A stretch of DNA of 64,000 nucleotides from Roseovarius mucosus DSM 17069 (lineage in GTDB: Bacteria > Pseudomonadota > Alphaproteobacteria > Rhodobacterales > Rhodobacteraceae). How positions within the stretch are numbered: position 1 is the stretch's first letter; the number at the start of each line of letters is the position of its first letter. This document shows positions 1-13,168 of this stretch, one piece after another. The notes below the pieces were generated by a model. The model saw only the letters and a list, made by a program, of their open reading frames with translations. It made no database searches and was not told where the DNA came from. Where the stretch lies: contig NZ_KN293980.1 of assembly GCF_000768555.3 (NCBI RefSeq), positions 344,947-408,946 on the forward strand, read 5' to 3'. The position numbers and the translations under genes were made by a program.

Positions 1-433
1 GCGTGGTCTGGTCGGGTTGGTCACCGGGACGCTCGGTGATTTGCAGGAGGGGCAGATCGAGGCCGATCACGAGCCAGTCGGGTTCGGCTTCGGGATCTGT
101 GCCGCCTGCGGCCACGCGCAGCCGCCCGCAAGAGGCCCCGTTGAGGCGGATGCCGCCCGACCATTCCAGTTGCACCGCCACCTCGGGCGGGGCGAGCGCA
201 CCAAAGGCGTTCTGAAAGCCGACGCCGCAGGTGGGCAGCATCACCATCGCCTCGGCCAGCGGCACCTCGGGGGCGAGGACAATGGCGGCCATCAGGTGAT
301 TGGCGGTGACATTATGCACGATGAGGCCCGCGTCGCAGCCCTCAGCGGCCAGATCGCGGGCCACATCAAAGGGATGGGTCGCGCCGGTGACGGCGCGCCC
401 CGACATCAGGGGTGGAAAGCTGGGCGCGGTCAT
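1..433 (-). CDS. DUF4444-type, biotin/lipoate ligase-like protein (3' end beyond window)
   Basis: The frame opens at the ATG ending at 433 and stays open for 144 codons to the window edge, so the C-terminus is missing. The protein begins MTAPSFPPLMSGRAVTGA and contains CGVGFQNAFGALAPPEVAV. From memory this matches the roseobacter protein annotated as biotin/lipoate A/B ligase family with a DUF4444 tail. The ATG overlaps the stop of the mrp gene in an ATGA junction, so the two are probably translationally coupled. I see no metal-binding or membrane motif in the visible part. Assignment of the family is fairly good; the enzymatic role is not established from what is visible. Confidence 0.7.
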   Translation of the reverse strand, partial: MTAPSFPPLMSGRAVTGATHPFDVARDLAAEGCDAGLIVHNVTANHLMAAIVLAPEVPLAEAMVMLPTCGVGFQNAFGALAPPEVAVQLEWSGGIRLNGASCGRLRVAAGGTDPEAEPDWLVIGLDLPLLQITERPGDQPDQTT

Positions 434-1494
434 GCCAGCCCTGCGTTGATGAGGTGGCGGGCCACCTCGCGGAAGGCCTGCGCCTGTGGGCTGTCGGGTT
501 TCGAGACCACGATGGGCGCGCCGCCATCCGAGGCCACGCGAATGTCGAGATGGAGCGGTATTTCCGCCAAGAGCGGCACGCCCAGTTTCTCGGCCTCTGC
601 CCGCACGCCGCCATGGCCAAAGACATGCTCTTCATGGCCGCAGTTGGAGCAGATATGCGTGCTCATGTTCTCGATCATGCCCAGCACCGGCACATGAAGC
701 TGGTTGAACATATCAATCCCCTTGCGGGCATCGAGAAGCGCCACATCCTGCGGTGTCGAGACGATGATCGCGCCATCCACCTGCGCCTTTTGCGCCAGTG
801 TCATCTGCACGTCACCGGTGCCGGGCGGCAGGTCCACCAAGAGCACATCGAGCGCGCCCCATTGCACCTGCATCAGCATCTGTTGCAGCGCGCCCATCAG
901 CATCGGGCCGCGCCAGACCACGGCCTGACCTTCGTTGGTCATGAGGCCGATGGACATCATCGTCACGCCGTGATTGCGCATGGGCAGGATGGTCTTGCCA
1001 TCGGGGCTGGCGGGGCGGCCCGAGACGCCCAGCATGCGCGGCTGGCTGGGGCCATAGACATCGGCATCCAAGAGGCCCACGCGCCGCCCCTCAGCGGCAA
1101 GGGCACAGGCGAGATTGGCAGAGACGGTGGATTTGCCGACCCCGCCCTTGCCAGAGGCGATGGCGATCAGGTGATTGACGCCGGGCACTTTTTCCGGCCC
1201 CTTCGGCTCTGCCTTGCGGGAGGGTTTGAGATCGGGCGGCGCCTTGGTCGAATGACCGGTCAGCACGACCGACACAGACTCCGCGCCTGAGAGCGCCTTG
1301 ACCGCCGCCTCGGCGGCATCGCGCACCGGGGTATAGGCCTGCGCCTTGGCCGGGTCGATTTCCAGCACGAAGCGCACGGTGCCGCCGTCGACCGTGAGGG
1401 CGCGCATCACGCCTGCGGCCACGATGTCCGATCCGCTGACCGGATCGGTGATATTTTTGAGCGCCTCAAGGACGCTCTCTCTTGTCAATGCCAC
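430..1494 (-). CDS. apbC: Mrp/NBP35-family P-loop ATPase, Fe-S cluster carrier (ApbC)
   Basis: This 354-residue protein is a cytoplasmic Fe-S cluster carrier that delivers [4Fe-4S] clusters to apo-enzymes. Residues 1-85 form a MIP18/DUF59-like domain, followed by a charged Pro/Lys linker. The deviant Walker A motif GKGGVGKST lies at residues 115-123, with the DADVYGPSQPRMLG switch region after it. The CSNCGHEEHVFG segment near residue 280 supplies the CxxC cluster ligands. Length is normal for the family. The start is GTG, just after the stop of the DUF6494 gene, and the 3' end overlaps the next gene by 4 bp, so the three form a leftward operon. A link to maturation of the nearby Fe-S-rich formate dehydrogenase is only inferred from location. 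Confidence 0.92.
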   Translation of the reverse strand: MALTRESVLEALKNITDPVSGSDIVAAGVMRALTVDGGTVRFVLEIDPAKAQAYTPVRDAAEAAVKALSGAESVSVVLTGHSTKAPPDLKPSRKAEPKGPEKVPGVNHLIAIASGKGGVGKSTVSANLACALAAEGRRVGLLDADVYGPSQPRMLGVSGRPASPDGKTILPMRNHGVTMMSIGLMTNEGQAVVWRGPMLMGALQQMLMQVQWGALDVLLVDLPPGTGDVQMTLAQKAQVDGAIIVSTPQDVALLDARKGIDMFNQLHVPVLGMIENMSTHICSNCGHEEHVFGHGGVRAEAEKLGVPLLAEIPLHLDIRVASDGGAPIVVSKPDSPQAQAFREVARHLINAGLA

Positions 1495-1753: not shown

Positions 1754-2533
1754 ATGCGCCTGTTGATGACCCTCTGCGATCGGCTGTCCCGGACCGCGAT
1801 GCTGTGGCTTGCGGTGGTCCTGTTGCTGCTGCCCGGCATGGGCCGCGCCGATGACAAGCGGTTTCGCCTGAGCGCGCCCGAGGCCTTGGTGCAGAGCGGG
1901 CTCTTGCAGTATATCGTGCCGCGTTTTGCGCTCAAGGTCGGGGTGCGGGTCGAGGTGGTGGACGAGGGGACCGAGGCCGAGATCACGTTGGGCCAACACG
2001 AGGGCCGCGCGGTATTCGAAGGGGCGGGCGCAGTCTGGCGCATGGGCGTGAGCGGCACGCATCCGGGGGCGGCACGGTTTGCCGACTGGCTGACATCCGA
2101 GATCGGGCAGCGCACGGTGACAAGCTATGAGGTGGCCGGAGTGGCCCCGTTTCGCCTGCCGCAGGTTGTGGAAGAGGCCGAGGCGACGGTGGTCTTTGAG
2201 GGCGATCCCGCCGTGGGCAAGCGGGTGTCCTTGCTGCAATGTGGACGCTGTCACGTGGTGGCCCCCGAGAACCGGATGGGGGCTATCGGTTCGACCCCGT
2301 CCTTCGCCGTGTTGCGGACCTTTGCCGATTGGGATGCGCGTTTCCAGAGCTTTTTTGCGCTCAAGCCGCATCCTGCCTTTACCCAAGTGGCCGGTGTGAC
2401 CCAGCCCTTTGCCCACCATCTGCCCTCGCCGATTTCGCCCATCGAGGTCACGCTCGATGAGTTGGAGGCGATCATCGCCTATGTGGCGGGGCTGGCCCCC
2501 GCCGATCTGGGCGCGCCGATCCAAGTTCAATGA
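1754..2533 (+). CDS. TupA-like periplasmic binding lobe fused to class I cytochrome c
   Basis: Using the ATG at 1754 gives 259 residues beginning with a signal peptide (hydrophobic core TAMLWLAVVLLLLPG, cleavage near GRADD). A longer start at 1715 is possible but would put extra residues before the signal. Residues 33-135 (RFRLSAPEALVQSGLLQYI... VGVRVEVVDEGTEAEI... ARFADWLTSEIGQ) resemble part of a tungstate/molybdate binding protein of TupA type. The C-terminal part has one heme c motif, CGRCH, at residues 163-167. A later MGAIGS/HPAF region could supply the distal Met, but this is not certain. The gene converges with the poly-ferredoxin gene, overlapping its 3' end by 7 bp. A role in passing electrons from formate oxidation, or in sensing Mo/W, is inference. 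Confidence 0.72.
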   Translation: MRLLMTLCDRLSRTAMLWLAVVLLLLPGMGRADDKRFRLSAPEALVQSGLLQYIVPRFALKVGVRVEVVDEGTEAEITLGQHEGRAVFEGAGAVWRMGVSGTHPGAARFADWLTSEIGQRTVTSYEVAGVAPFRLPQVVEEAEATVVFEGDPAVGKRVSLLQCGRCHVVAPENRMGAIGSTPSFAVLRTFADWDARFQSFFALKPHPAFTQVAGVTQPFAHHLPSPISPIEVTLDELEAIIAYVAGLAPADLGAPIQVQ

Positions 2534-4482
2534 TCCTTGCGCTTGGTCAGGTAATCCTCGGTACGGCGCACGCGCGGCCGCTGACCCAGGGCAAAGGGAT
2601 TGTCGGCCGAGTTGAACTGCGCGTTGATGCGGCAACCCTCGCACATCTGGATCATGCGCGCCGCATCTGACGTGGCAAACATCGCGTGCTTGCCCGCGAG
2701 TTTCTCGGTGATGCGCTCAATCGTGGCCTTGGAGCCAAAGAGCGTGCCGCACTCGATGCAGGCAAAGGGTTCTTCTTCGTTCAACACCACTTGGGTGAGC
2801 GCCGTGTCGTCGAGGTTCATGCGCGGCTCCAGCGTAATCGCCTTTTCCGGGCAGATCGTGGCGCAGATGCCGCATTGCAGGCAGGCATCCTCTTGAAAGC
2901 GCAATTGCGGTTTGTCCTCGTTGTCCATCAACGCGCCCGAGGGGCAAAGCGAGACGCACGACAGGCAGAGCGTGCAGGCGTCGGTATTGACCAGCACTGC
3001 GCCGTATGGTGCGGTGGCGGGAAGGGGCAGGGTGCCGCCCGAGGGATTGAGGGATTTGGCGGCGAGGCGCGCCACCTGCCTGCGGCTGCCCATGGGTAGA
3101 ACCGGGGTCGCAATGGGGGCGGGTGGTGTGGCACCGTATAGCGCATCGCAGAGCGCGTCGGGGTCGCCGAGGTCAAGAAGATGCACAGTGTCCGCCCCTG
3201 ACATGGCCTGTGCCAGCGGCACCTCTTGATCGAGCGCGTCGCGTTCTGTGGTGGGGGCGAGCAGGATCGCCACATCGGCAAAGCCCGAGGCGAGAGCTGC
3301 GAGGATTTCGGCATGGCCAAAGCCCGCAAGCGCCGAAACCTCCAGCGGGATCACATCGGCGGGCAACCCGCGCCCGTGGCGGGCGGCAAGGCGGATCATC
3401 TCGGCCCCGTGGGTGGCGTCATGGACCAACAGGCGAGGGGCGGTGCCGCCAGCCTTGCGATAGGCCTGCGCCAACGTTTGAATGCGGCGAAAGATCATGT
3501 CAGGCGGCGGCGAGTCATAGGTGATGGCCCCCGAGGGACAGCGTGCGGCGCAGGCCCCGCAACCCGCGCAGATCATCGGATCAATGCTGACGTGATCGCC
3601 ATCCGGGCTTATCGCGCCAGTGGGGCAGATATCGAGACATTTGCTACACCCGGTCTGTTCGGCGCGGGAATGGGCGCAAATGAGCGGCTCAAGCGCCACG
3701 TAAAGCGGCTTTTCGAAGGTGCCGATCATCTGGGCGGCCTGAAAGACCGCGTCGGAGACCGCATTCAGGCTGCCGGGATCGGCGCGCAGGTAGCCTTCGC
3801 GCTTTTCCGGGGCGGGAAAGAGCGGCGTGCCGCCGCGCAGGTCAAGCAGGACGTCGCATTGCGTCTGTCCACCGTCGCGCGGCGCAGTCCAACGCAGCGC
3901 GCCGCGCCCGGCGGGATTGACTTGTTGCAGCGCGTCGATGCGCAGCTCGAACTGGCCGAGCGTGCCGCTGGCCTGCGTGATCCGGCCCCGGATCGCGTCG
4001 AAATCGCGGCTCTCGGGCGGGTCGGTCTCGTCCGTCAAAAGCACCGTGACCCCAAGGAGTGGGGCCAGTTTTTCGGCGGCAGGCAGCGCGACATCCGAGG
4101 CCCCAAGGATCAGGCACAGTCCCTCGGAAATGACATCCACGGTCTTTTGCGGCGGGCTGGGCAGGCTGGCTTCGGCCAGGAGAGCGGCCATTTTGGGTAG
4201 TTTTGAGGCCGGATCATCCGACCAACCGGCCCTGTCGCGCAGGTCGATGAGGGGGGGGCTGTCCACCTCCAGATCGGCGGCCAGATCCTCGAACATGCGG
4301 GCCTCTTGGGTGCAGCAAATAATTGCCTCGCCGGTAGCAATGGCCTTGGCTGCGGCCTCGATTTCATCGGTGCAGAGCGCACTATGCCGCCGCGAACAGC
4401 CCAAGCCGGTGGCCTTGGAGAGCCCCTCTGGGTCGAGCGTTTGGGTTGCGGAACAATCGCACAAAATCAGGTGTTTAGGCAT
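2527..4482 (-). CDS. Poly-[4Fe-4S] ferredoxin-domain protein of formate dehydrogenase locus
   Basis: Starting from the ATG at 4482 (MPKHLILCDC; a GTG at 4503 would add 7 residues) this is about 651 residues with no signal peptide, so cytoplasmic. Two ferredoxin modules are visible. One carries CSKCLDICPTGAI and CAGCGACAARCPSGAI near residues 290-330. The other carries CTLCLSCVSLCPSGAL and CLQCGICATICPEKAI near residues 510-560, giving four [4Fe-4S] sites. A later CIECG and a CEGCR pair near the C-terminus may bind metal. The same family sits beside DUF3305/DUF3306/TorD and fdh genes in other Rhodobacteraceae, which fits a redox or Fe-S assembly role for formate dehydrogenase. The exact electron partners are unknown. 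It is divergent from the DUF3305 gene. Confidence 0.85.
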   Translation of the reverse strand: MPKHLILCDCSATQTLDPEGLSKATGLGCSRRHSALCTDEIEAAAKAIATGEAIICCTQEARMFEDLAADLEVDSPPLIDLRDRAGWSDDPASKLPKMAALLAEASLPSPPQKTVDVISEGLCLILGASDVALPAAEKLAPLLGVTVLLTDETDPPESRDFDAIRGRITQASGTLGQFELRIDALQQVNPAGRGALRWTAPRDGGQTQCDVLLDLRGGTPLFPAPEKREGYLRADPGSLNAVSDAVFQAAQMIGTFEKPLYVALEPLICAHSRAEQTGCSKCLDICPTGAISPDGDHVSIDPMICAGCGACAARCPSGAITYDSPPPDMIFRRIQTLAQAYRKAGGTAPRLLVHDATHGAEMIRLAARHGRGLPADVIPLEVSALAGFGHAEILAALASGFADVAILLAPTTERDALDQEVPLAQAMSGADTVHLLDLGDPDALCDALYGATPPAPIATPVLPMGSRRQVARLAAKSLNPSGGTLPLPATAPYGAVLVNTDACTLCLSCVSLCPSGALMDNEDKPQLRFQEDACLQCGICATICPEKAITLEPRMNLDDTALTQVVLNEEEPFACIECGTLFGSKATIERITEKLAGKHAMFATSDAARMIQMCEGCRINAQFNSADNPFALGQRPRVRRTEDYLTKRKDH

Positions 4483-4503
4483 GTTTACCCCGGTGTTTGA
4501 CAC

Positions 4504-4830: not shown

Positions 4831-5437
4831 ATGCACCATCGCGTGACCTATCGCCACGAACCAAAGACGCTGGACAAGCAGATGATTGTGCCTTTGGGCA
4901 TTGTCGTGCGCCGCACGCCGGGCGTGACGCGCTGGGCGGCTTGGGCTTGGCGGGCGGTGGCCGTGCTGCCGGGGGGCGCCGCAGGCGGATTGGCGCGAAT
5001 TGCGGCGCGATGGGGAGGCCGTGGATTTCCACGCCGCAACCGTTCTTCTCGATCTGCATCACACCCAGACAGAGGCGTATTTGCAGGGGCTTTCGGCGCG
5101 CGTGCCGTCGGTCTTTGTGATCCTGCGCAACCGGCCCAATGCAGATGCGGAACGCGCGCCCTATGAGGTGGTGCTGGTCACGGCCTCGCCATTCGAGGCG
5201 CAGGACTATGCCGACAATGGCGATGATATCGTGGAAAAGGTGCCGATGCCCGAGGGTCTGGTAGCGCTGATCCGCGATTTCGTCGAGGCGCATCATGAGG
5301 AAGAGGCGTTTCACAAGCGCCGCCGCGACAAGCAGGCCGACGGACCGGCGCAAGATGGGATCGGGGACGCGCGCATCGTTCAGCCGCGTGACGTCTTTGC
5401 CACGCCCGAACGGATGCGCCGGGGGAGGCTAAATTGA
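4831..5437 (+). pseudogene. DUF3305 protein, frameshifted by one G (possible base-call error)
   Basis: The N-terminal half is read in one frame from ATG 4831 (or ATG 4882, MIVPLGIVVRRTPG). The C-terminal half is read in another frame (VDFHAATVLLDLHHTQTEAY to the TGA at 5435-5437). The frames meet at a run of six G at 4971-4976. Removing one G gives a continuous protein through VLPGAPQADWRELRRDGEA, as expected for DUF3305. The family is always found with DUF3306 and TorD beside formate dehydrogenase. It is presumed to help cofactor insertion or maturation, but its role is unproven. The C-terminus is Arg/Lys-rich. Two other genes in the window have the same kind of lesion, so an error in the sequence is likelier than true loss. 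Confidence 0.75.
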
Positions 5438-6051
5438 GCCGGGGTGCAGATTTCTGGTCCCGTCGCAAAGCACGGGTCGAGGCGGAGGCGCGGGAAGAGG
5501 CGCGGCTTGAGGAAGAGCGTGCGCTTGCGGCTCGTGAGGCCGAGCTTGAGGAAAAGACCGACGCCGAGTTGTGCGAGGAACTGGGTCTGCCTGATCCCGA
5601 CGCGTTGCAGATGGGCGATGATTTTCGCGCCTTCATGGACAAGGCCGTGCCCGAGCGTTTGCGGCGGCGGGCGCTGCGGCGGCTCTGGGTCAGCAATCCG
5701 GTTCTGGCCAATCTCGACGGTTTGGTCGATTACGCCGAGGACTACACCGATGCCGCCATGGTGGTGCCTGATATGAAGACCGCTTATCAGGTGGGTAAGG
5801 GTATGCTGGCGCATGTGCAGGAAATGGCGCGCCAAGCCGAAGCGCTGGCCAAGGGCCCCGAAGAGGCGGAGGCGGTAGCCGAAGCCGTGGTCGAAGAACC
5901 CGACAGCGCAGAGGTTGAAGCTGAGGCCTCGCAAGAGATGGCCGTTGCCGAGGTCGAGGTCGAGACAAATACGGCGCAGGACGATACCTCGCTGCCGCCA
6001 CGCCGCAGGATGCGGTTTCAATTCGATGATCAGCCCGGAGTATCCGCATGA
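5434..6051 (+). CDS. DUF3306 protein of formate dehydrogenase maturation locus
   Basis: This 205-residue cytoplasmic protein starts with TTG at 5434, overlapping the DUF3305 stop. A strong GGGGGAGG ribosome site 5 bp upstream decides this start. It opens MSRGADFWSRRKARVEAEA and continues as a highly charged helical segment. A globular core around LCEELGLPDPDALQMGDDF and WVSNPVLANLDGLVDYAEDY is typical of DUF3306. The C-terminal third is Glu/Ala-rich low-complexity sequence. The next gene (TorD-like) overlaps its stop by 4 bp. The family is known only by association with formate dehydrogenase; its function is unproven. Confidence 0.88.
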   Translation: MSRGADFWSRRKARVEAEAREEARLEEERALAAREAELEEKTDAELCEELGLPDPDALQMGDDFRAFMDKAVPERLRRRALRRLWVSNPVLANLDGLVDYAEDYTDAAMVVPDMKTAYQVGKGMLAHVQEMARQAEALAKGPEEAEAVAEAVVEEPDSAEVEAEASQEMAVAEVEVETNTAQDDTSLPPRRRMRFQFDDQPGVSA

Positions 6052-6677
6052 CCCAATCTGAGGCGCTCATGACCCAAGAGGCCGTCTTGCCCGAGATTGC
6101 CGCAGAGGACGCGCTGCGCGCTGATCTCTACGATTTTCTCGCGGCCATTCTGGCCCGCCCGCCGGGCGAGGCGCTGTTGGCGCAGACGGCCGCGCTGAGC
6201 GGTGATGCCACAAGATTGGGTGAGGCTGTCACCGCTCTGGCCCGCGTGGCTGGGGTGAGCAAGCCTGCCGGGGTCGAGCGCGAGTTCAACGCGCTCTTTA
6301 TTGGCCTCGGTCGGGGCGAATTGCTGCCCTATGCGAGCTATTATCTTACCGGGTTTCTCAATGAGAAGCCTTTAGCCGGGTTGCGCCGCGACATGGCCGC
6401 GCGTGGCATGACCCGCGCGCAGAATGTCTATGAGCCCGAGGACAACATTGCCTCGCTCATGGAAATGATGGCGGGGATGATCCGGGGGCGCTTTGGCAAG
6501 CCCGCGACGCTGATCGAACAACAGGCGTTCTTTGGCAAGCATATCGGCCCTTGGGCCGGGCATTTTTTCACGGATTTGGAGGCTGCGAACAGTTCGGTTC
6601 TCTATGCCTCGGTCGGCGCGGTCGGTCGGGTGTTCATGGAGATCGAGGCGCAGGGCTTTCGAATGAGCGGGGCGTAA
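6048..6677 (+). CDS. TorD/DmsD-type molybdoenzyme chaperone
   Basis: This is a 209-residue, all-helical cytoplasmic protein with the TorD family signature blocks: a central VEREFNALFIGLGRGELLPYASYYLTG and later YEPEDNIASLMEMMAGMI. The EPEDNI-like motif is the known hallmark of these redox-enzyme maturation proteins. It should bind the twin-arginine leader of the formate dehydrogenase catalytic subunit and hold export until the molybdopterin cofactor is in place. Its ATG overlaps the DUF3306 stop. It is followed 54 bp later by the small Tat peptide gene and then fdhA, which supports this pairing. Confidence 0.9.
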   Translation: MTQSEALMTQEAVLPEIAAEDALRADLYDFLAAILARPPGEALLAQTAALSGDATRLGEAVTALARVAGVSKPAGVEREFNALFIGLGRGELLPYASYYLTGFLNEKPLAGLRRDMAARGMTRAQNVYEPEDNIASLMEMMAGMIRGRFGKPATLIEQQAFFGKHIGPWAGHFFTDLEAANSSVLYASVGAVGRVFMEIEAQGFRMSGA

Positions 6678-7022: not shown

Positions 7023-9908
7023 ATGTTGAGGAAAAAGACCAACGGGGTTGCACGTCGCCCCCAGCGGACCAGTATCCTGTCCGAGGTCGCCGGAACCTCG
7101 GTTGACCGTCGCGCGTTCCTGCGCGGCAGCGGGTTGGCCATCGGTGGCCTTGCCGCGATCGGTGCCATGGGTGGCACTGTCACCCGTGCCAATGCGCAGA
7201 GCGCGGCCAGTGCGGCGGTTCAGACGGTGAAATCTGTCTGCACGCATTGCTCGGTCGGTTGCACGGTCGTGGCCGAGGTGCAGAACGGTGTCTGGACGGG
7301 GCAGGAACCCGGCTGGGACAGCCCGTTCAACCTGGGTTCGCATTGCGCCAAAGGGGCCGCCGTGCGCGAGCATGCCCATGGCGAGCGCCGCCTGAAATAC
7401 CCGATGAAGAAAGAGGGTGGCGAGTGGAAGCGCATCAGCTGGGAGCAGGCGATCAACGAGATCGGCGACGGCATGATGAAGATCCGCGAAGAGAGCGGCC
7501 CGGATTCGGTCTATTGGCTGGGCTCTGCCAAGCACAATAACGAACAGGCGTATCTGTTCCGCAAGTTCGCTGCCTATTGGGGCACGAACAACGTCGACCA
7601 TCAGGCGCGGATCTGTCACTCGACCACAGTGGCCGGTGTGGCGAACACATGGGGCTACGGCGCCATGACCAACAGCTACAACGACATTCACAATTCCAAG
7701 GCGATTTTCATCATTGGCGGCAACCCCGCAGAGGCGCATCCCGTGTCGCTGCTTCATGTGCTGAAAGCCAAGGAAGAGAACAACGCGCCGCTGATCGTTT
7801 GCGACCCGCGCTTTACCCGTACCGCAGCGCATGCCGACGAGTATGTGCGGTTCCGTCCGGGTTCGGACGTGGCGCTGGTCTGGGGCATCCTGTGGCACAT
7901 CTTCGAGAATGGCTGGGAGGACAAGGAATTCATCCGCACCCGCGTCTGGGGCATGGACCAGATCAAGGACGAGGTGAAGAAGTGGACGCCGGAAGAGACC
8001 GAGCGCGTGACCGGCGTGCCGGGCGAGCAACTGCGCCGCGTGGCGCGCACGCTGGCCAATAGCCGTCCGGGCACAGTGATCTGGTGCATGGGTGGCACAC
8101 AGCACACCAACGGCAACAACAACACCCGCGCCTATTGCATCCTGCAACTGGCATTGGGCAACATGGGCACCTCCGGTGGCGGTACCAATATCTTCCGTGG
8201 CCATGACAACGTGCAGGGCGCGACGGATCTTGGGGTTCTGGCCGATACGCTGCCCGGCTACTACGGTCTGGCGGAAGGGTCCTGGGCCCATTGGGCGCGC
8301 GTCTGGGGTGAGGATCTGGACTGGCTCAAGAGCCGGTTCTCGGATGCGTCCTATGGCGACAAGAAGATGATGAACCTCAACGGCATCACCGTGTCGCGTT
8401 GGATTGACGGTGTGCTTGAGGACAACGAGAACATGGATCAGCCCAATAATGTGCGGGCCATGGTTCTCTGGGGGCATGCGCCCAACAGCCAGACACGCGG
8501 CAAGGAAATGAAAACCGCGATGGAAAAGCTGGACATGCTGGTTGTGGTCGATCCGTTCCCGACGGTTTCTGCCGTCATGAACGACCGTACCGACGGCGTG
8601 TATCTGCTGCCTGCGACCACGCAATTCGAGACGCGCGGCTCTGTCACCGCCTCGAACAGGTCACTGCAGTGGCGTGACAAGATCATGGACCCGCTCTTTG
8701 AATCCAAGGTCGATCACGAGATCCTCGCGCTCTTTGCGCAGAAGTTCGGGTTCCATGACCGGATCTTCCGCAATATCGCGATTGAAGAAAGCGGCGAGCC
8801 CAACGTCGAAGACATCACTCGCGAGTTCAACCGCGGCATGTGGACAATCGGCTATACGGGTCAGTCCCCGGAACGGCTCAAGCTGCATATGGCGAACCAG
8901 CATACCTTTGATCGCACCACGTTGCGCGCAAAGGGTGGCCCGGCCGATGGCGATTACTACGGTCTGCCCTGGCCCTGCTGGGGAACCGCCGAGATGAACC
9001 ATCCGGGCACGGCCAATCTCTATGACATGTCGCTGCCGGTTTCCAAAGGTGGTTTGACCTTCCGTGCGCGTTTCGGCGTGGAGCGGGATGGCGACAACCT
9101 TTTGGCCGAGGGTGTCTATTCGGCGGGGTCCGAAATTCAGGATGGTTATCCGGAATTCACCATGCAGATGCTGATGGACCTGGGCTGGGATGGCGATCTG
9201 ACCGCAGAAGAGCGCGCCGCTATCGACGCGGTGGGCGGTCCTGCGGCCAACTGGAAGATCGACCTTTCGGGCGGGATCCAGCGGGTGGCGATCAAGCACG
9301 AATGCGCGCCCTTCGGCAATGCCAAGGCGCGGGCTGTCGTGTGGACCTTCCCTGATCCGGTTCCGTTGCACCGCGAACCGCTCTACACGAGCCGTCGTGA
9401 TCTGGTGGCGGACTATCCGACCTACGAGGACCGCAAGGCTTGGCGTCTGCCGACCATGTATGCCTCGATCCAGAAGAATGACTTTTCTCAGGACTATCCG
9501 ATCATCCTGACCTCTGGCCGTCTGGTCGAATATGAGGGCGGCGGCGACGAGACCCGGTCAAACCCTTGGCTGGCCGAGTTGCAGCAGGATATGTTCGTCG
9601 AGATCAACCCGCGTGACGCCAACAACATCGGCGTGCGGGATGGCGCTCAGGTCTGGGTCGAAGGCCCAGAGGGAGGCAAGGTCAAGGTCATGGCGATGGT
9701 GACAGAGCGGGTGGCGGAAGGTGTGGCCTTCATGCCCTTCCACTTTGGCGGTCATTTCGAGGGGCGCGACCTGCGCGAGAACTATCCCGCCGGGGCCGAT
9801 CCCTATGTCTTGGGTGAGAGCACGAACACCGCTCAGACCTATGGCTATGACTCGGTCACGCAGATGCAGGAGACCAAGGCGACTCTCTGCAAGATCATGC
9901 CAGCGTAA
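7023..9908 (+). CDS. fdhA: Formate dehydrogenase, catalytic alpha subunit (Tat-exported, Mo/W-bis-MGD)
   Basis: This 961-residue protein oxidises formate to CO2 in the periplasm. Its Tat leader is DRRAFLRGSGLAIGG near residues 28-42, cleaved around NAQSA. A [4Fe-4S] cluster is bound by Cys73, Cys76, Cys80 and Cys108. The metal ligand is Cys198 in QARICHSTTV, a plain cysteine (TGT) where the E. coli enzymes use selenocysteine. The NIFRGHDNVQGATD and GHAPNSQTRG blocks and the C-terminal molybdopterin dinucleotide-binding domain are present. Length fits the FdnG/FdoG class of membrane-linked enzymes. The start follows an AGGAGAGAGAAAC ribosome site. It is followed at 12 bp by the beta subunit. 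Confidence 0.95.
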   Translation: MLRKKTNGVARRPQRTSILSEVAGTSVDRRAFLRGSGLAIGGLAAIGAMGGTVTRANAQSAASAAVQTVKSVCTHCSVGCTVVAEVQNGVWTGQEPGWDSPFNLGSHCAKGAAVREHAHGERRLKYPMKKEGGEWKRISWEQAINEIGDGMMKIREESGPDSVYWLGSAKHNNEQAYLFRKFAAYWGTNNVDHQARICHSTTVAGVANTWGYGAMTNSYNDIHNSKAIFIIGGNPAEAHPVSLLHVLKAKEENNAPLIVCDPRFTRTAAHADEYVRFRPGSDVALVWGILWHIFENGWEDKEFIRTRVWGMDQIKDEVKKWTPEETERVTGVPGEQLRRVARTLANSRPGTVIWCMGGTQHTNGNNNTRAYCILQLALGNMGTSGGGTNIFRGHDNVQGATDLGVLADTLPGYYGLAEGSWAHWARVWGEDLDWLKSRFSDASYGDKKMMNLNGITVSRWIDGVLEDNENMDQPNNVRAMVLWGHAPNSQTRGKEMKTAMEKLDMLVVVDPFPTVSAVMNDRTDGVYLLPATTQFETRGSVTASNRSLQWRDKIMDPLFESKVDHEILALFAQKFGFHDRIFRNIAIEESGEPNVEDITREFNRGMWTIGYTGQSPERLKLHMANQHTFDRTTLRAKGGPADGDYYGLPWPCWGTAEMNHPGTANLYDMSLPVSKGGLTFRARFGVERDGDNLLAEGVYSAGSEIQDGYPEFTMQMLMDLGWDGDLTAEERAAIDAVGGPAANWKIDLSGGIQRVAIKHECAPFGNAKARAVVWTFPDPVPLHREPLYTSRRDLVADYPTYEDRKAWRLPTMYASIQKNDFSQDYPIILTSGRLVEYEGGGDETRSNPWLAELQQDMFVEINPRDANNIGVRDGAQVWVEGPEGGKVKVMAMVTERVAEGVAFMPFHFGGHFEGRDLRENYPAGADPYVLGESTNTAQTYGYDSVTQMQETKATLCKIMPA

Positions 9909-9920
9909 GGAGGAAAGAGA

Positions 9921-10517
9921 ATGGCAAGAGCAAAGTTTCTCTGCGACGCCGAGCGCTGCATCGAATGCAACGCCTGTGTCACGGCCTGTAAGAACGAGCA
10001 CGAGGTGCCGTGGGGGATCAACCGCCGCAAGGTGGTGACGATCAACGACGGCAGCCCCGGTGAACGCTCGATCTCGGTGGCCTGCATGCATTGTTCGGAT
10101 GCGCCCTGCATGGCCGTCTGCCCGGTGGATTGCTTCTATCAGAACGAGGAGGGCATCGTGTTGCACTCCAAGGATCTGTGCATCGGTTGTGGCTATTGCT
10201 TCTATGCGTGCCCGTTCGGTGCGCCGCAATTCCCGCAGGCGGGCAATTTCGGCAGCCGGGGCAAGATGGACAAGTGCACCTTCTGCGCCGGTGGTCCGGA
10301 AGAGAACCACTCGGAGGCCGAGTTCCAGAAGTACGGGCGCAACCGGATCGCTGAGGGCAAGCTGCCCATCTGCGCCGAAATGTGCTCGACCAAGGCGCTC
10401 TTGGCGGGGGATGGCGACGTGGTGTCGGCCATCTACCGCGAGCGCGTCGTGGCCCGCGGCTTTGGCTCGGGCGCTTGGGGCTGGGGTTCTGCTTACGGCC
10501 AGCAGAGCGGCGGCTGA
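9921..10517 (+). CDS. fdhB: Formate dehydrogenase, iron-sulfur beta subunit
   Basis: This 198-residue protein carries electrons from the alpha subunit to the membrane cytochrome. Four cysteine clusters of the DMSO-reductase-family beta type are visible: CIECNACVTACKNEHE at the N-terminus, CMHCSDAPCMAVCPVDC, CIGCGYCFYACPFGAPQ, and a last set KCTFCAGG with CAEMC. Together these give four [4Fe-4S] centres. It has no C-terminal membrane helix, unlike E. coli FdnH. The ribosome site AAGGAGGAAAGAGA precedes the ATG. It lies between the alpha and gamma genes. Confidence 0.95.
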   Translation: MARAKFLCDAERCIECNACVTACKNEHEVPWGINRRKVVTINDGSPGERSISVACMHCSDAPCMAVCPVDCFYQNEEGIVLHSKDLCIGCGYCFYACPFGAPQFPQAGNFGSRGKMDKCTFCAGGPEENHSEAEFQKYGRNRIAEGKLPICAEMCSTKALLAGDGDVVSAIYRERVVARGFGSGAWGWGSAYGQQSGG

Positions 10518-10634
10518 GATCGGGGTGGGGTGACACCCACCCTACGGATCGCTGCGGGGATCACACCCGCGCAATGCACAGGGTGGGCGGCTGACAGGCC
10601 GCCCACAGCGACGTATAGACATTTTCCAGACAGG
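10518..10634. repeat. Paired palindromic (REP-like) element between fdhB and fdhC
   Basis: Two GC-rich hairpins fill this 117-bp gap. The first has arms GGTGGG and CCCACC around a GTGACA loop near 10524-10541. The second has perfect 9-bp arms GTGGGCGGC (10583-10591) and GCCGCCCAC (10598-10606) around TGACAG. The form is that of a repetitive extragenic palindrome. It may lower read-through or protect the upstream mRNA, but this is inference. Confidence 0.55.
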
Positions 10635-11855
10635 ATGACCGCCATGCCCCGCATGATCATGACGCTGTTGCTTTCCTTGTTCCTTGCAGCGCCCCTGGCG
10701 GCGCAAGAAGCCACGGGGGCCGCCGGGATTGACCGCTCTGCCACAGGTGGCGCGCAGACATTGGAGGATATCCTGGCCCGGCAACGCGGCGAAGTCGTTG
10801 CCCCAAAGGGCGGCGATGCCGCCTCGGACGGGGAAGGTGCCGCTGCCATGGCCGGACAGTTGGGCACTCTGGGCGGGGCATCGGATGCCGAGGTGTGGCG
10901 CGCGCTGCGCTATGGGCTGGACGATGTAAAGGTTTCTGCCGGAGGCCCGGAAGCGCGCGTTCTCATTCAGGATGGTGGCATGACCTGGCTTGAGTTCCGC
11001 AAGGGGCCGCTGGCCACTTACGGGGCCGGGCTGTTGGGGGGCACGCTGGCGCTCTTGGCGCTGTTCTACCTGGTCCGGGGCAAAATCCGGATCGACGGGG
11101 CCAAGACAGGCCGCACCGTCACACGATTTCAAGCGGTTGAGCGGTTTGGTCATTGGCTGATGGCGGGGTCGTTCGTGGTGCTGGCGATCACGGGGCTTGT
11201 GGTGCTCTTTGGCCGGATGGTGGTGATCCCGCTCTTGGGGCACGAGGCCTTCTCGACCATCGCTGTCGCCTCGAAATGGGTGCATAACAACATCTCTTGG
11301 GCCTTCATGCTGGGGCTTGTGATGGTGTTCTTCATGTGGGTGCTGCACAATATTCCCAATCGGACGGACCTGAAATGGCTGGCTGTGGGGGGCGGAATTT
11401 TCACCAAGGGCGTGCATCCACCTGCCAAGAAATTCAACGCCGGGCAAAAGATGATCTTTTGGTCGGTGATCGTGTTTGGTGCGTCTATCTCGGCCTCGGG
11501 CCTGTCGCTGCTCTTTCCGTTCGAATTGCCGATGTTCGCCAAGACCTTTGCCATTCTCAACCAGACGGGATTGCCGCAGGCGGTGGGTTTCGGCGAGTTG
11601 CCGGTAATGCTGGCCCCACATGAGGAAATGCAACTGGCGACGCTTTGGCATTCGATCATGGCCTTTGTTCTGACGGCAATCATTCTGGCGCATATCTACA
11701 TCGGCTCGGTCGGTATGGAGGGTGCGTTCGATGCCATGGGGTCGGGCGAGGTCGAAGAACAATGGGCGCGCGAGCATCATGGCCTGTGGCTCAAGGAGTT
11801 GCAGGAAAAGGGCCACGCACCCGATCCCGGCAAGGCCGCGCATCCCGCGGAGTAG
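10635..11855 (+). CDS. fdhC: Formate dehydrogenase, membrane cytochrome b gamma subunit
   Basis: From ATG 10635 (MTAMPRMIMTLLLSLFLAAP) this is 406 residues. It has an N-terminal signal-like segment and a periplasmic stretch of about 100 residues. A transmembrane helix follows (YGAGLLGGTLALLALFYLV), then a cytochrome b561-type core with helices around FGHWLMAGSFVVLAITGLVV, NNISWAFMLGLVMVFFMWV, MIFWSVIVFGASISASGLSL and LWHSIMAFVLTAIILAHIYI. His residues in these helices can bind heme b. It should anchor the complex and pass electrons to quinone or another carrier. The N-terminal extension is longer than in E. coli FdnI, as in other FdoI/FdhC-type gammas. The next gene starts 3 bp after its stop. 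Confidence 0.9.
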   Translation: MTAMPRMIMTLLLSLFLAAPLAAQEATGAAGIDRSATGGAQTLEDILARQRGEVVAPKGGDAASDGEGAAAMAGQLGTLGGASDAEVWRALRYGLDDVKVSAGGPEARVLIQDGGMTWLEFRKGPLATYGAGLLGGTLALLALFYLVRGKIRIDGAKTGRTVTRFQAVERFGHWLMAGSFVVLAITGLVVLFGRMVVIPLLGHEAFSTIAVASKWVHNNISWAFMLGLVMVFFMWVLHNIPNRTDLKWLAVGGGIFTKGVHPPAKKFNAGQKMIFWSVIVFGASISASGLSLLFPFELPMFAKTFAILNQTGLPQAVGFGELPVMLAPHEEMQLATLWHSIMAFVLTAIILAHIYIGSVGMEGAFDAMGSGEVEEQWAREHHGLWLKELQEKGHAPDPGKAAHPAE

Positions 11856-11857
11856 TC

Positions 11858-13168
11858 ATGGGGGCGCGTGCCTTTGGTCTCTGGCTCTGGGCGCTGGTGG
11901 GGACAAGCCCGCTGGCGGCCCAAGAGTTTACCACGCTCAAGGGACATGGTGGGCCTGTCATGGGCTTATGCGTGCTGCAGACGAGTGGCGAGGTGGTTTC
12001 GGCCAGTTTCGACAATTCCGTCGGTGTCTGGCAGGGGCGCATGCCACGCTGGTTTGAAGGGCATGCGGCCGCAGTGATCGCGGTGGCAGAGCTGGGCGAG
12101 GGGCGACTGGTGTCGGGGGGCGATGATTTCGCGCTGATCGTCTGGAACCGCGCGACCGGGCAGGGCACGCGGCGCGAAGGACACAAAGGCAAGGTTGCGG
12201 CGCTGGATGTGTCGCCGGATGGAGACTGGATCGCGTCAGCGAGTTGGGACGGGTCGATTGGCATCTGGCCTGTCGCGGGAGGGGCCGCGCGGTTTTTGAC
12301 GGGCCATGACGCGGCGGTGAGCGATGTTGCGTTCAACCACGATGGCACGCTTTTGTATTCTTCCTCTGCCGATGGGACGTTGCGCGAATGGCGCTGGCAA
12401 GAGGTGGATGCCCCGCCGCGTGAATTGCTCAATCAGGGGTTTGGCATAAACCGGATTGTGCTGGGGCCTGAGGATGCGTGGCTCGCCTATGGTGCGGTCG
12501 ATGGGGCGACGCGGGTGATTGACCCGGCAAGCGGTCGGCAGATTGCCGATTTCACGCTGGAGCGCCGCCCGGTGCTGTCGCTGGTTCATCACGCGGAGAC
12601 CGCGCAGTTGGCCGCCGGGGATGGGCAGGGCTATATCATGGTGATCGACACGCAGGAGTGGCGGATCACCCGCGATTTTCAGGCCATGGCGCGCGGCCCG
12701 GTCTGGGCGTTGGATTTTTCACCCGACGGGCGTATGATTTACGCTGGTGGGCTAAGCGAGGTCGTCTATGGCTGGCCGGTCGAGATGCTGGGCGACTATG
12801 ACCCGGCGGGTGAGACAGAGCATAGTTTCCTGCGCCCGCCCGAAGAGATGGAGAATGGCGAGCGGCAATTCATGCGCAAATGCTCGATCTGCCATGCACT
12901 GACACCGCCGCCCTCGCGCAAGGCCGGGCCAACGCTCTATGGGCTGTTTGGGCGTCAGGCGGGAACGGTGCCGGGCTATCCCTATTCCGAAATCCTCGAT
13001 GGATCGGGTATCGTGTGGAATGACACAACGATTGACGCGCTCTTCGACCTTGGGCCGGATCACTATATCCCCGGCTCCAAGATGCCAATGCAACGGATCA
13101 CAGCGGCAAAGGATCGGCAGGATATGATCGACTATCTGCGTCGGGCCACCGCAACAGAAGGGAACTGA
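11858..13168 (+). CDS. Periplasmic WD40 beta-propeller fused to cytochrome c
   Basis: This 436-residue protein starts at ATG 11858 after a CGGAG ribosome site and opens with a signal peptide (FGLWLWALVGTSPLAAQ). Residues 20-320 contain about seven WD40-like repeats (e.g. GHGGPVMGL...SFDNSVGVW, EGHKGKVAALDVSPDGDWI, TGHDAAVSDVAFNHDGTLL). The C-terminal 100 residues are a class I cytochrome c with heme motif CSICH, a GPTLYGLFGRQAG segment and likely Met ligand in GSKMPMQ. It sits inside the formate dehydrogenase operon directly after the gamma subunit. An electron-transfer or docking role for formate oxidation in the periplasm is therefore plausible, though not known. Confidence 0.8.
   Translation: MGARAFGLWLWALVGTSPLAAQEFTTLKGHGGPVMGLCVLQTSGEVVSASFDNSVGVWQGRMPRWFEGHAAAVIAVAELGEGRLVSGGDDFALIVWNRATGQGTRREGHKGKVAALDVSPDGDWIASASWDGSIGIWPVAGGAARFLTGHDAAVSDVAFNHDGTLLYSSSADGTLREWRWQEVDAPPRELLNQGFGINRIVLGPEDAWLAYGAVDGATRVIDPASGRQIADFTLERRPVLSLVHHAETAQLAAGDGQGYIMVIDTQEWRITRDFQAMARGPVWALDFSPDGRMIYAGGLSEVVYGWPVEMLGDYDPAGETEHSFLRPPEEMENGERQFMRKCSICHALTPPPSRKAGPTLYGLFGRQAGTVPGYPYSEILDGSGIVWNDTTIDALFDLGPDHYIPGSKMPMQRITAAKDRQDMIDYLRRATATEGN

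Follow-up and report, generated by a model that had tools for sequence, protein, structure and literature searches.

The gene at 1754..2533 (+ strand) of the window (the whole 64,000-nucleotide stretch of Roseovarius mucosus DSM 17069 DNA that was analyzed) encodes part of the binding protein TupA joined to a mono-heme cytochrome c. As judged from sequence comparison, the N-terminal domain corresponds to TupA lobe A, with lobe B absent. The favored reading, held with moderate confidence, is that the product is a periplasmic cytochrome of the adjacent formate dehydrogenase cluster in which the TupA-derived lobe A serves as a docking module. Computed results cover homology, the predicted fold, the loss of the known ligand motifs, the gene neighborhood, purifying selection and the existence of un-fused relatives; the docking partner, the direction in which electrons flow and the bis-His ligation are inferences. 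A single lobe was rebuilt from the two ends of a chain and kept, as a predicted stand-alone domain, under purifying selection. The fusion offers a natural setting in which to study the capabilities of one lobe left without its ligand site and its partner lobe, and it draws attention to a cytochrome that has received little notice in the TupA-linked formate dehydrogenase clusters of marine bacteria.

Homologue sets and protein layout

A scan of named genomes yielded 291 confirmed stretches, of which the best 80 were retained (Stappia and Roseibium are represented among them); because of this selection, the 80 named loci lean toward close relatives. Motifs were counted in 80 proteins, i.e. 79 loci and the window; L073 was left out because it had been translated in the wrong frame. 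One family alignment comprised 62 of the 80 loci plus the window, and another comprised 57 loci plus the window. Within the best 80 of the 291 loci, the closest to the window protein were a Roseovarius metagenome-assembled genome (88% identity) and Roseovarius sp. 217 (82%). In the five plasmid records that carry the fusion, it is annotated as “hypothetical protein” in four and as “c-type cytochrome” in one.

The reading frame extends from the ATG at 1754 to the stop codon at 2533 (259 residues); an in-frame ATG upstream, at 1715, would lengthen the product to 272 residues. All of the following features lie on the + strand. A signal peptide (residues 1-32, 1754..1849), featuring a hydrophobic stretch up to ...GMGRA, was assigned by eye. 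Residues 33-82 (1850..1999) were equated with the TupA N-terminus using the first hhalign block and the alignments to 3muq and 3lr1, and residues 104-135 (2063..2158) with the TupA C-terminus using the second hhalign block and the alignment to 5my5. The junction of 21 residues (2000..2062) was defined as the gap between the two blocks and stands at TupA model positions 75-239. The TupA-like part as a whole spans approximately residues 34-138 (ca. 105 residues) and is followed by a short linker and then by the mono-heme class I-type cytochrome c domain (residues 146-259, 2189..2530), which was delimited using PF00034 and VIA. The heme-binding CGRCH (C163-H167, with C163, C166 and H167; 2240..2254) was read from the sequence, and His206 (2369..2371) was proposed as the distal heme ligand from its conservation in 80/80 proteins.

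Sequence relationship to TupA

An earlier note, made from the letters of the window, had held the N-terminal ca. 100 residues to be TupA-like, and profile-profile comparison bore this out. The window protein taken singly matched the NCBIfam TupA model (NF041772) at E = 0.034 and 13.5 bits, short of the curated cut-off of 400 bits, although this was the sole family reported in the NCBIfam search. At E ≤ 0.1, the same model matched 32 of the 63 family members (best, 1.7e-4). Against TupA structures the single protein gave weak alignments, with 3muq aligned as two separate pieces, one at each end of TupA. When a family profile of 63 homologues was compared to PDB sequences, the top matches were 3muq (1.5e-5), 3lr1 (5.5e-4) and 5my5 (1.1e-3); in this comparison the C-terminal piece by itself was not significant against 3muq, so the homology case for that piece is carried by the second hhalign block and by 5my5.

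For the hhalign comparison, the TupA side was built from 38 TupA sequences. Family columns 2-50 were aligned with TupA 26-74 (score 61.9, E = 1.5e-9), and family columns 73-104 with TupA 240-271 (score 59.0, E = 4.7e-9). Twenty column shuffles reached scores of at most 19.4, which rules out chance similarity to TupA. In whole-genome profile searches, a number of TupA frames were likewise matched as separate pieces (profile positions ca. 3-77 and 87-121). The 21 junction residues occupy the place of ca. 165 in TupA, and the profile alignment does not place them. In the Desulfovibrio TupA structure, lobe A is given as residues 2-76 and 201-251 and lobe B as residues 91-200 (PMC5517513); by these borders, the fusion is missing lobe B together with the central strand and adjacent portions of lobe A.

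Two further resemblances were treated as chance. A Pfam match to DUF5300 (E = 0.03) fell below the cut-off and occurred in 2 of 63 members. In a five-sequence alignment, an SGTH of the window protein was placed opposite the SGTH of TupA lobe B; most homologues do not have SGTH at that place, and the equivalence was discarded for this reason.

Predicted structure of the N-terminal domain

In an AlphaFold2 model, pLDDT was ca. 89-95 across the first 100 residues of the lobe; the overall pTM was 0.49, so the relative placement of the domains is unsure. The top five Foldseek matches were all TupA-type chains, with E-values of 0.004-0.02 and none below 0.001. In VIA, model residues 2-106 best matched TupA 5my5 (Z = 14.9; 104 residues, 2.0 Å), followed by 3muq (12.9), the putative metal-binding protein 3cvg (12.5) and ModA (at most 12.0). 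The earlier note had named a predicted fold unrelated to type II binding proteins as a refutation, and such a fold was not seen. Nearly the whole domain of the model superposes on TupA, even though the junction residues were left unplaced by the profile.

Oxyanion-binding residues

Binding proteins work by the closing of two lobes on a ligand. The fusion has neither two lobes nor a binding cleft: lobe B is deleted. The TTTS oxyanion motif corresponds to Thr9-Ser12 of Desulfovibrio TupA, and the ligands R118, T124 and D170 sit in lobe B, according to the structural report (PMC5517513); the positions of the latter three were deleted with that lobe. At the TTTS position (residues 41-44) the window protein reads APEA, and nearly all homologues read A/V-P-x-x there (81 rows, including the wrong-frame L073). 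Neither a TTTS-like motif nor SRGDxSGT was found in any of the 80 proteins (79 loci and the window). In the TupA comparison set, TTS was present within the first 60 residues in 37/38 and SRGDxSGTH in 35/38. The homologue in L100 does contain a TTS, at an unrelated place. The check on conservation of the oxyanion-binding residues that the earlier note had called for thus came out negative, and the remaining folded lobe A, as read from these motifs, can probably no longer close over or hold tungstate.

Cytochrome domain

That the C-terminus is a mono-heme cytochrome, as had been claimed from the sequence, was upheld by the presence of exactly one CXXCH in each of the 80 proteins (79 loci and the window) and by PF00034, which matched 49 of the 63 family members with E ≤ 0.1 (best, 7.5e-6). 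The window protein itself scored 13.3 bits (E = 0.22), under the PF00034 cut-off of 21.3 bits. The heme-free model of this domain was of middling confidence (pLDDT 77). Its best Foldseek match had an E-value of 0.42, and the 50 rows shown by VIA were all c-type cytochromes with a top Z of 7.0; given these weak scores, the assignment to the class I fold leans on the sequence.

The usual distal ligand of class I cytochromes c is a Met. No Met column after the CXXCH was conserved at 90% in the 80 proteins, i.e. the distal Met of class I was not found. H206, present in 80/80, stands alone among the His, Met, Lys, Tyr and Cys residues beyond the CXXCH in being conserved at 90% or more, and its equivalent was kept in all 12 un-fused relatives inspected by eye. 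In the short un-fused relatives of L146 and L151, this His precedes an aromatic residue in the C-terminal helix by 18 residues; for the Met of KMPM in the window's WD40-linked cytochrome, the distance to the corresponding aromatic is 17 residues (counted by eye). From the conservation of H206 and its spacing relative to the KMPM Met, the heme of the fusion is probably ligated by two histidines (H167/H206) rather than by His/Met. Bis-His hemes have lower potentials than His/Met hemes, and the heme of the fusion is probably of lower potential than that of a His/Met cytochrome.

Genomic neighborhood

The fusion gene sits beside formate dehydrogenase, as the earlier note had stated, and belongs to the same cluster. 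Upstream on the - strand lie an ApbC/Mrp iron-sulfur carrier gene (430..1494), a conserved neighbor present in 80/80 loci, and, between it and the fusion, a gene for a DUF6494 protein of 64 residues (1496-1690; 8.7e-27), which is divergent from the fusion. Downstream, a gene for a 4Fe-4S polyferredoxin-like protein (2527..4503, - strand), also present in 80/80 loci, converges on the fusion gene and overlaps it by 7 bases. The genes for DUF3305, DUF3306 and a TorD/DmsD-like chaperone follow on the + strand (5000..6677), with the 5' part of the DUF3305 gene apparently in another frame. Two frames seem to share the DUF3305 gene (ca. 4840-5437), with the break near 4970-5000, which may be a genuine frameshift or an error in sequencing: in the downstream frame the Pfam match begins at profile position 38, and the upstream frame resembles, by eye, the N-terminus of DUF3305.

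The catalytic subunit of formate dehydrogenase type, fdhA (7023..9908, + strand; TIGR01591 and PF00384, with a Tat motif noted by eye), starts 4.5 kb downstream of the fusion gene; its TIGR01591 score was 490 bits, below the model cut-off of 666. It is succeeded on the same strand by genes for a 4Fe-4S subunit (fdhB) and a cytochrome b561-type subunit (fdhC) at 9921..11855 and, directly after fdhC, by a gene whose product joins a WD40 propeller to a second cytochrome c (11858..13168, + strand; PF00400, 1.2e-37; PF00034, 2.1e-6). Relatives of this WD40-cytochrome gene also follow fdhC in L141, L143 and L146.

Among the best 80 of 291 loci, the order apbC, fusion, polyferredoxin was found in 80/80 (with a gap sometimes exceeding 1 kb, as in L069), and fdhA in 73/80 (several loci are not long enough to include it). 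Operons that combine formate dehydrogenase with DUF3305/3306 and a DmsD-type chaperone have been described (PMC4464133); the term “cytochrome c” does not occur in that text. Tungstate transporters are often collocated with tungsten-using operons, according to PMC13197769.

Distribution

Within the genus, 44 of the 60 genomes gave strong matches to the fusion, one of them (G015) in two pieces; a wider tally of 47/100 includes one TupA cross-hit and two partial matches from other families. In six genomes of the genus, apbC adjoins the polyferredoxin gene with no related cytochrome between them. In a sample of the order (E ≤ 1e-12), 80 of 244 genomes matched, 78 with both parts and two with the cytochrome alone; one of the 78 (G636) is partial, has an internal stop and is without the polyferredoxin. 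At the same threshold, the 129 polyferredoxin-positive genomes of this sample comprised 77 with the fusion, two with the bare cytochrome and 50 with neither.

The cluster is almost confined to genomes having TupA, with a TupA match present in 128 of these 129 genomes. The match was found in all 78 fusion genomes, in 49 of the 50 with neither form and in both bare-cytochrome genomes; since TupA is equally common without the fusion, it is tied to the formate dehydrogenase cluster and not to the fusion. Of 68 fusion genomes in which both positions were available, 44 had TupA within 25 kb on the same contig (at 3-5 kb in 23 of the 44). In L190 and L193 the order is tupB-tupC-tupA, apbC, fusion; in the genome of the window, tupABC is on a different contig than the fusion.

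PADLOC gave no match, and a single-protein search of viral contigs, which finds close relatives only, returned no relative. Judged by title, none of the open-license papers listed for TupA together with cytochromes, formate dehydrogenase or fusions, or for formate dehydrogenase of Roseovarius/Rhodobacteraceae, described this protein.

Un-fused relatives, selection and origin

Formate dehydrogenase clusters of other families contain un-fused cytochromes related to the C-terminal domain. In L143, from another family, a cytochrome that is 64% identical lies between apbC and the polyferredoxin gene, and tupB-tupC-tupA comes after the WD40-cytochrome gene of the same cluster. The un-fused cytochrome, TupA and formate dehydrogenase genes occur within 20 kb in L141, L142, L146 and L147. 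In L150 the cytochrome accompanies the cluster and TupA is absent from the stretch; L145 has the cytochrome, the polyferredoxin and tup genes, and fdhA is absent from the stretch. In the stretches taken from L148, L149 and L151 (other families), no cluster genes were found near the un-fused cytochrome. In two members of the family itself (L191 and L192, from G545 and G659), the cytochrome stands without the lobe, at a distance from formate dehydrogenase genes and beside patatin-like and metalloprotease-like genes (by eye).

Other genes were noted near these cytochromes or near tup genes. A multicopper oxidase, possibly another electron acceptor, is encoded beside or near the un-fused cytochrome and tup genes at L142:11901-13289 (Pfam) and L145:8321-9742 (by eye). 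A regulator with HTH_17 and PBP_like domains (Pfam in L152) is encoded beside tupABC at L152:4226-5095, and such a regulator is also encoded at L141:8430-9425, where it separates tupA from the un-fused cytochrome.

Across 10 pairs of closely related sequences, dN/dS (Nei-Gojobori) ranged over 0.13-0.27 in the lobe and 0.10-0.29 in the cytochrome; the pairs share sequences and hence are not independent. Both parts of the fusion are under purifying selection of about equal strength. These values and the 80/80 synteny rule out a recent pseudogene or an assembly artifact. R57 of the lobe is near-invariant (80 of 81 rows, including the wrong-frame L073); the TupA of the window's genome has Ile there.

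A tree of 114 columns did not place the fusions on one clean side, with three un-fused rows falling inside the group, and a single fusion clade was not rejected (p-AU 0.436). This tree included L143 and omitted L141, L145, L146 and L150, which have long branches, as well as L154 and L155, which are the same proteins as L116 and L117; an earlier tree had contained neither L143 nor L151. The tree neither shows nor rejects one origin and is compatible with a single origin with loss as well as with other histories. The simplest history would be that the resident tupA was copied, and that the copy was stripped of lobe B and fused to the cytochrome gene.

Functional interpretation

In the favored mechanism, a copy of tupA would have lost lobe B by internal deletion and become the N-terminal domain of the fusion. 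Lobe A would then act as a docking module for the cytochrome. Its partner would most likely be the formate dehydrogenase of the periplasm, or an assembly intermediate of this enzyme, and the docked heme would exchange electrons with that partner. The docking role is favored by analogy to XoxGJ. A XoxG-XoxJ fusion of Methylacidiphilum is described as the redox partner of XoxF (PMC8498564), XoxJ as interacting with and perhaps activating XoxF1 (PMC7391723), and XoxJ/MxaJ as suggested binders of partially folded apo-dehydrogenase (PMC12997753). Against this reading, the fusion is dispensable, given that 50 of 129 polyferredoxin-positive genomes of the order have neither it nor an un-fused cytochrome, and the enzyme owns a cytochrome b subunit and in principle requires no cytochrome c. 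Also against it stand the six genomes of the genus without a related cytochrome at this spot, the two bare cytochromes away from the dehydrogenase, the un-fused relatives of L148, L149 and L151 without cluster genes in the stretches taken, and the middling confidence of the cytochrome model.

The earlier note had offered a choice between a redox-linked metal sensor and a reused scaffold. A sensor in which the lobe binds tungstate or molybdate and the heme reports or gates the binding would accord with the TupA ancestry of the lobe and with the presence of TupA in nearly all cluster genomes (128/129). It is nonetheless extremely improbable because lobe A alone is present, TTTS (in 0/80; the position is mostly A/V-P-x-x) is lost and lobe B has gone together with R118, T124 and D170 (numbering of PMC5517513); moreover, no sensor output domain was seen in the fusion. 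The scaffold alternative fits a single lobe A without an oxyanion site. Lobe A might instead dock on TupBC, the permease, where it would compete with TupA or modulate it, such that the redox state of the cytochrome tunes tungstate uptake. The TupA match in every one of the 78 order-sample genomes with the fusion, its location within 25 kb in 44 of 68 and the gene order of L190 and L193 agree with this, but TupA is as frequent without the fusion (49/50 and both bare-cytochrome genomes), so the co-occurrence is not specific and we regard the idea as distinctly unlikely. A combined version, in which lobe A docks the cytochrome on both the TupBC importer and formate dehydrogenase and tungstate uptake for that enzyme is tuned by how formate oxidation sets the redox state, is very improbable.

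The un-fused forms in other families and in two family members would be explained if the lobe were a spacer or solubility domain that folds but is neutral for function, with the cytochrome alone mattering. The purifying selection on the lobe, about equal to that on the cytochrome in the 10 pairs, and its near-invariant residues that are missing from TupA, such as R57, make this explanation rather unlikely. A role in maturation, in which a MxaJ/XoxJ-like lobe binds periplasmic formate dehydrogenase in its unfolded or apo state and the heme is a redox helper, would suit the assembly-type neighbors ApbC and TorD. Tat-type molybdo- and tungsto-enzymes receive their cofactor in the cytoplasm, however, which makes a periplasmic loading step unexpected, and we consider this role unlikely despite the XoxJ precedent (PMC12997753).

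Comparison with known systems

The favored docking role finds its nearest parallel in XoxGJ (cytochrome cGJ), which likewise unites a cytochrome c and a binding-protein module in one chain; the present fusion has a single lobe. XoxGJ serves a periplasmic PQQ methanol dehydrogenase, and its binding-protein part is XoxJ, whereas here it is TupA (PMC8498564). With the TupA of TupABC (5my5, 3lr1; NF041772), the fusion has in common the sequence and predicted fold of lobe A, drawn from both chain ends. TupA differs in having lobe B and the cleft, TTTS and the lobe-B ligands; the fusion is without these and carries a cytochrome. The cytochrome shares with class I cytochromes c (PF00034) a CXXCH near the N-terminus and a C-terminal helix, gives weak fold matches, and differs in that a conserved His, not a Met, is the likely distal ligand. 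The un-fused cytochromes of alphaproteobacterial formate dehydrogenase clusters (for example L143, L141, L142 and L147) are homologous to it and have the GSTPSF and PH motifs in common. Several of them also share cluster genes with the fusion; the difference is that the un-fused forms are without the TupA lobe.
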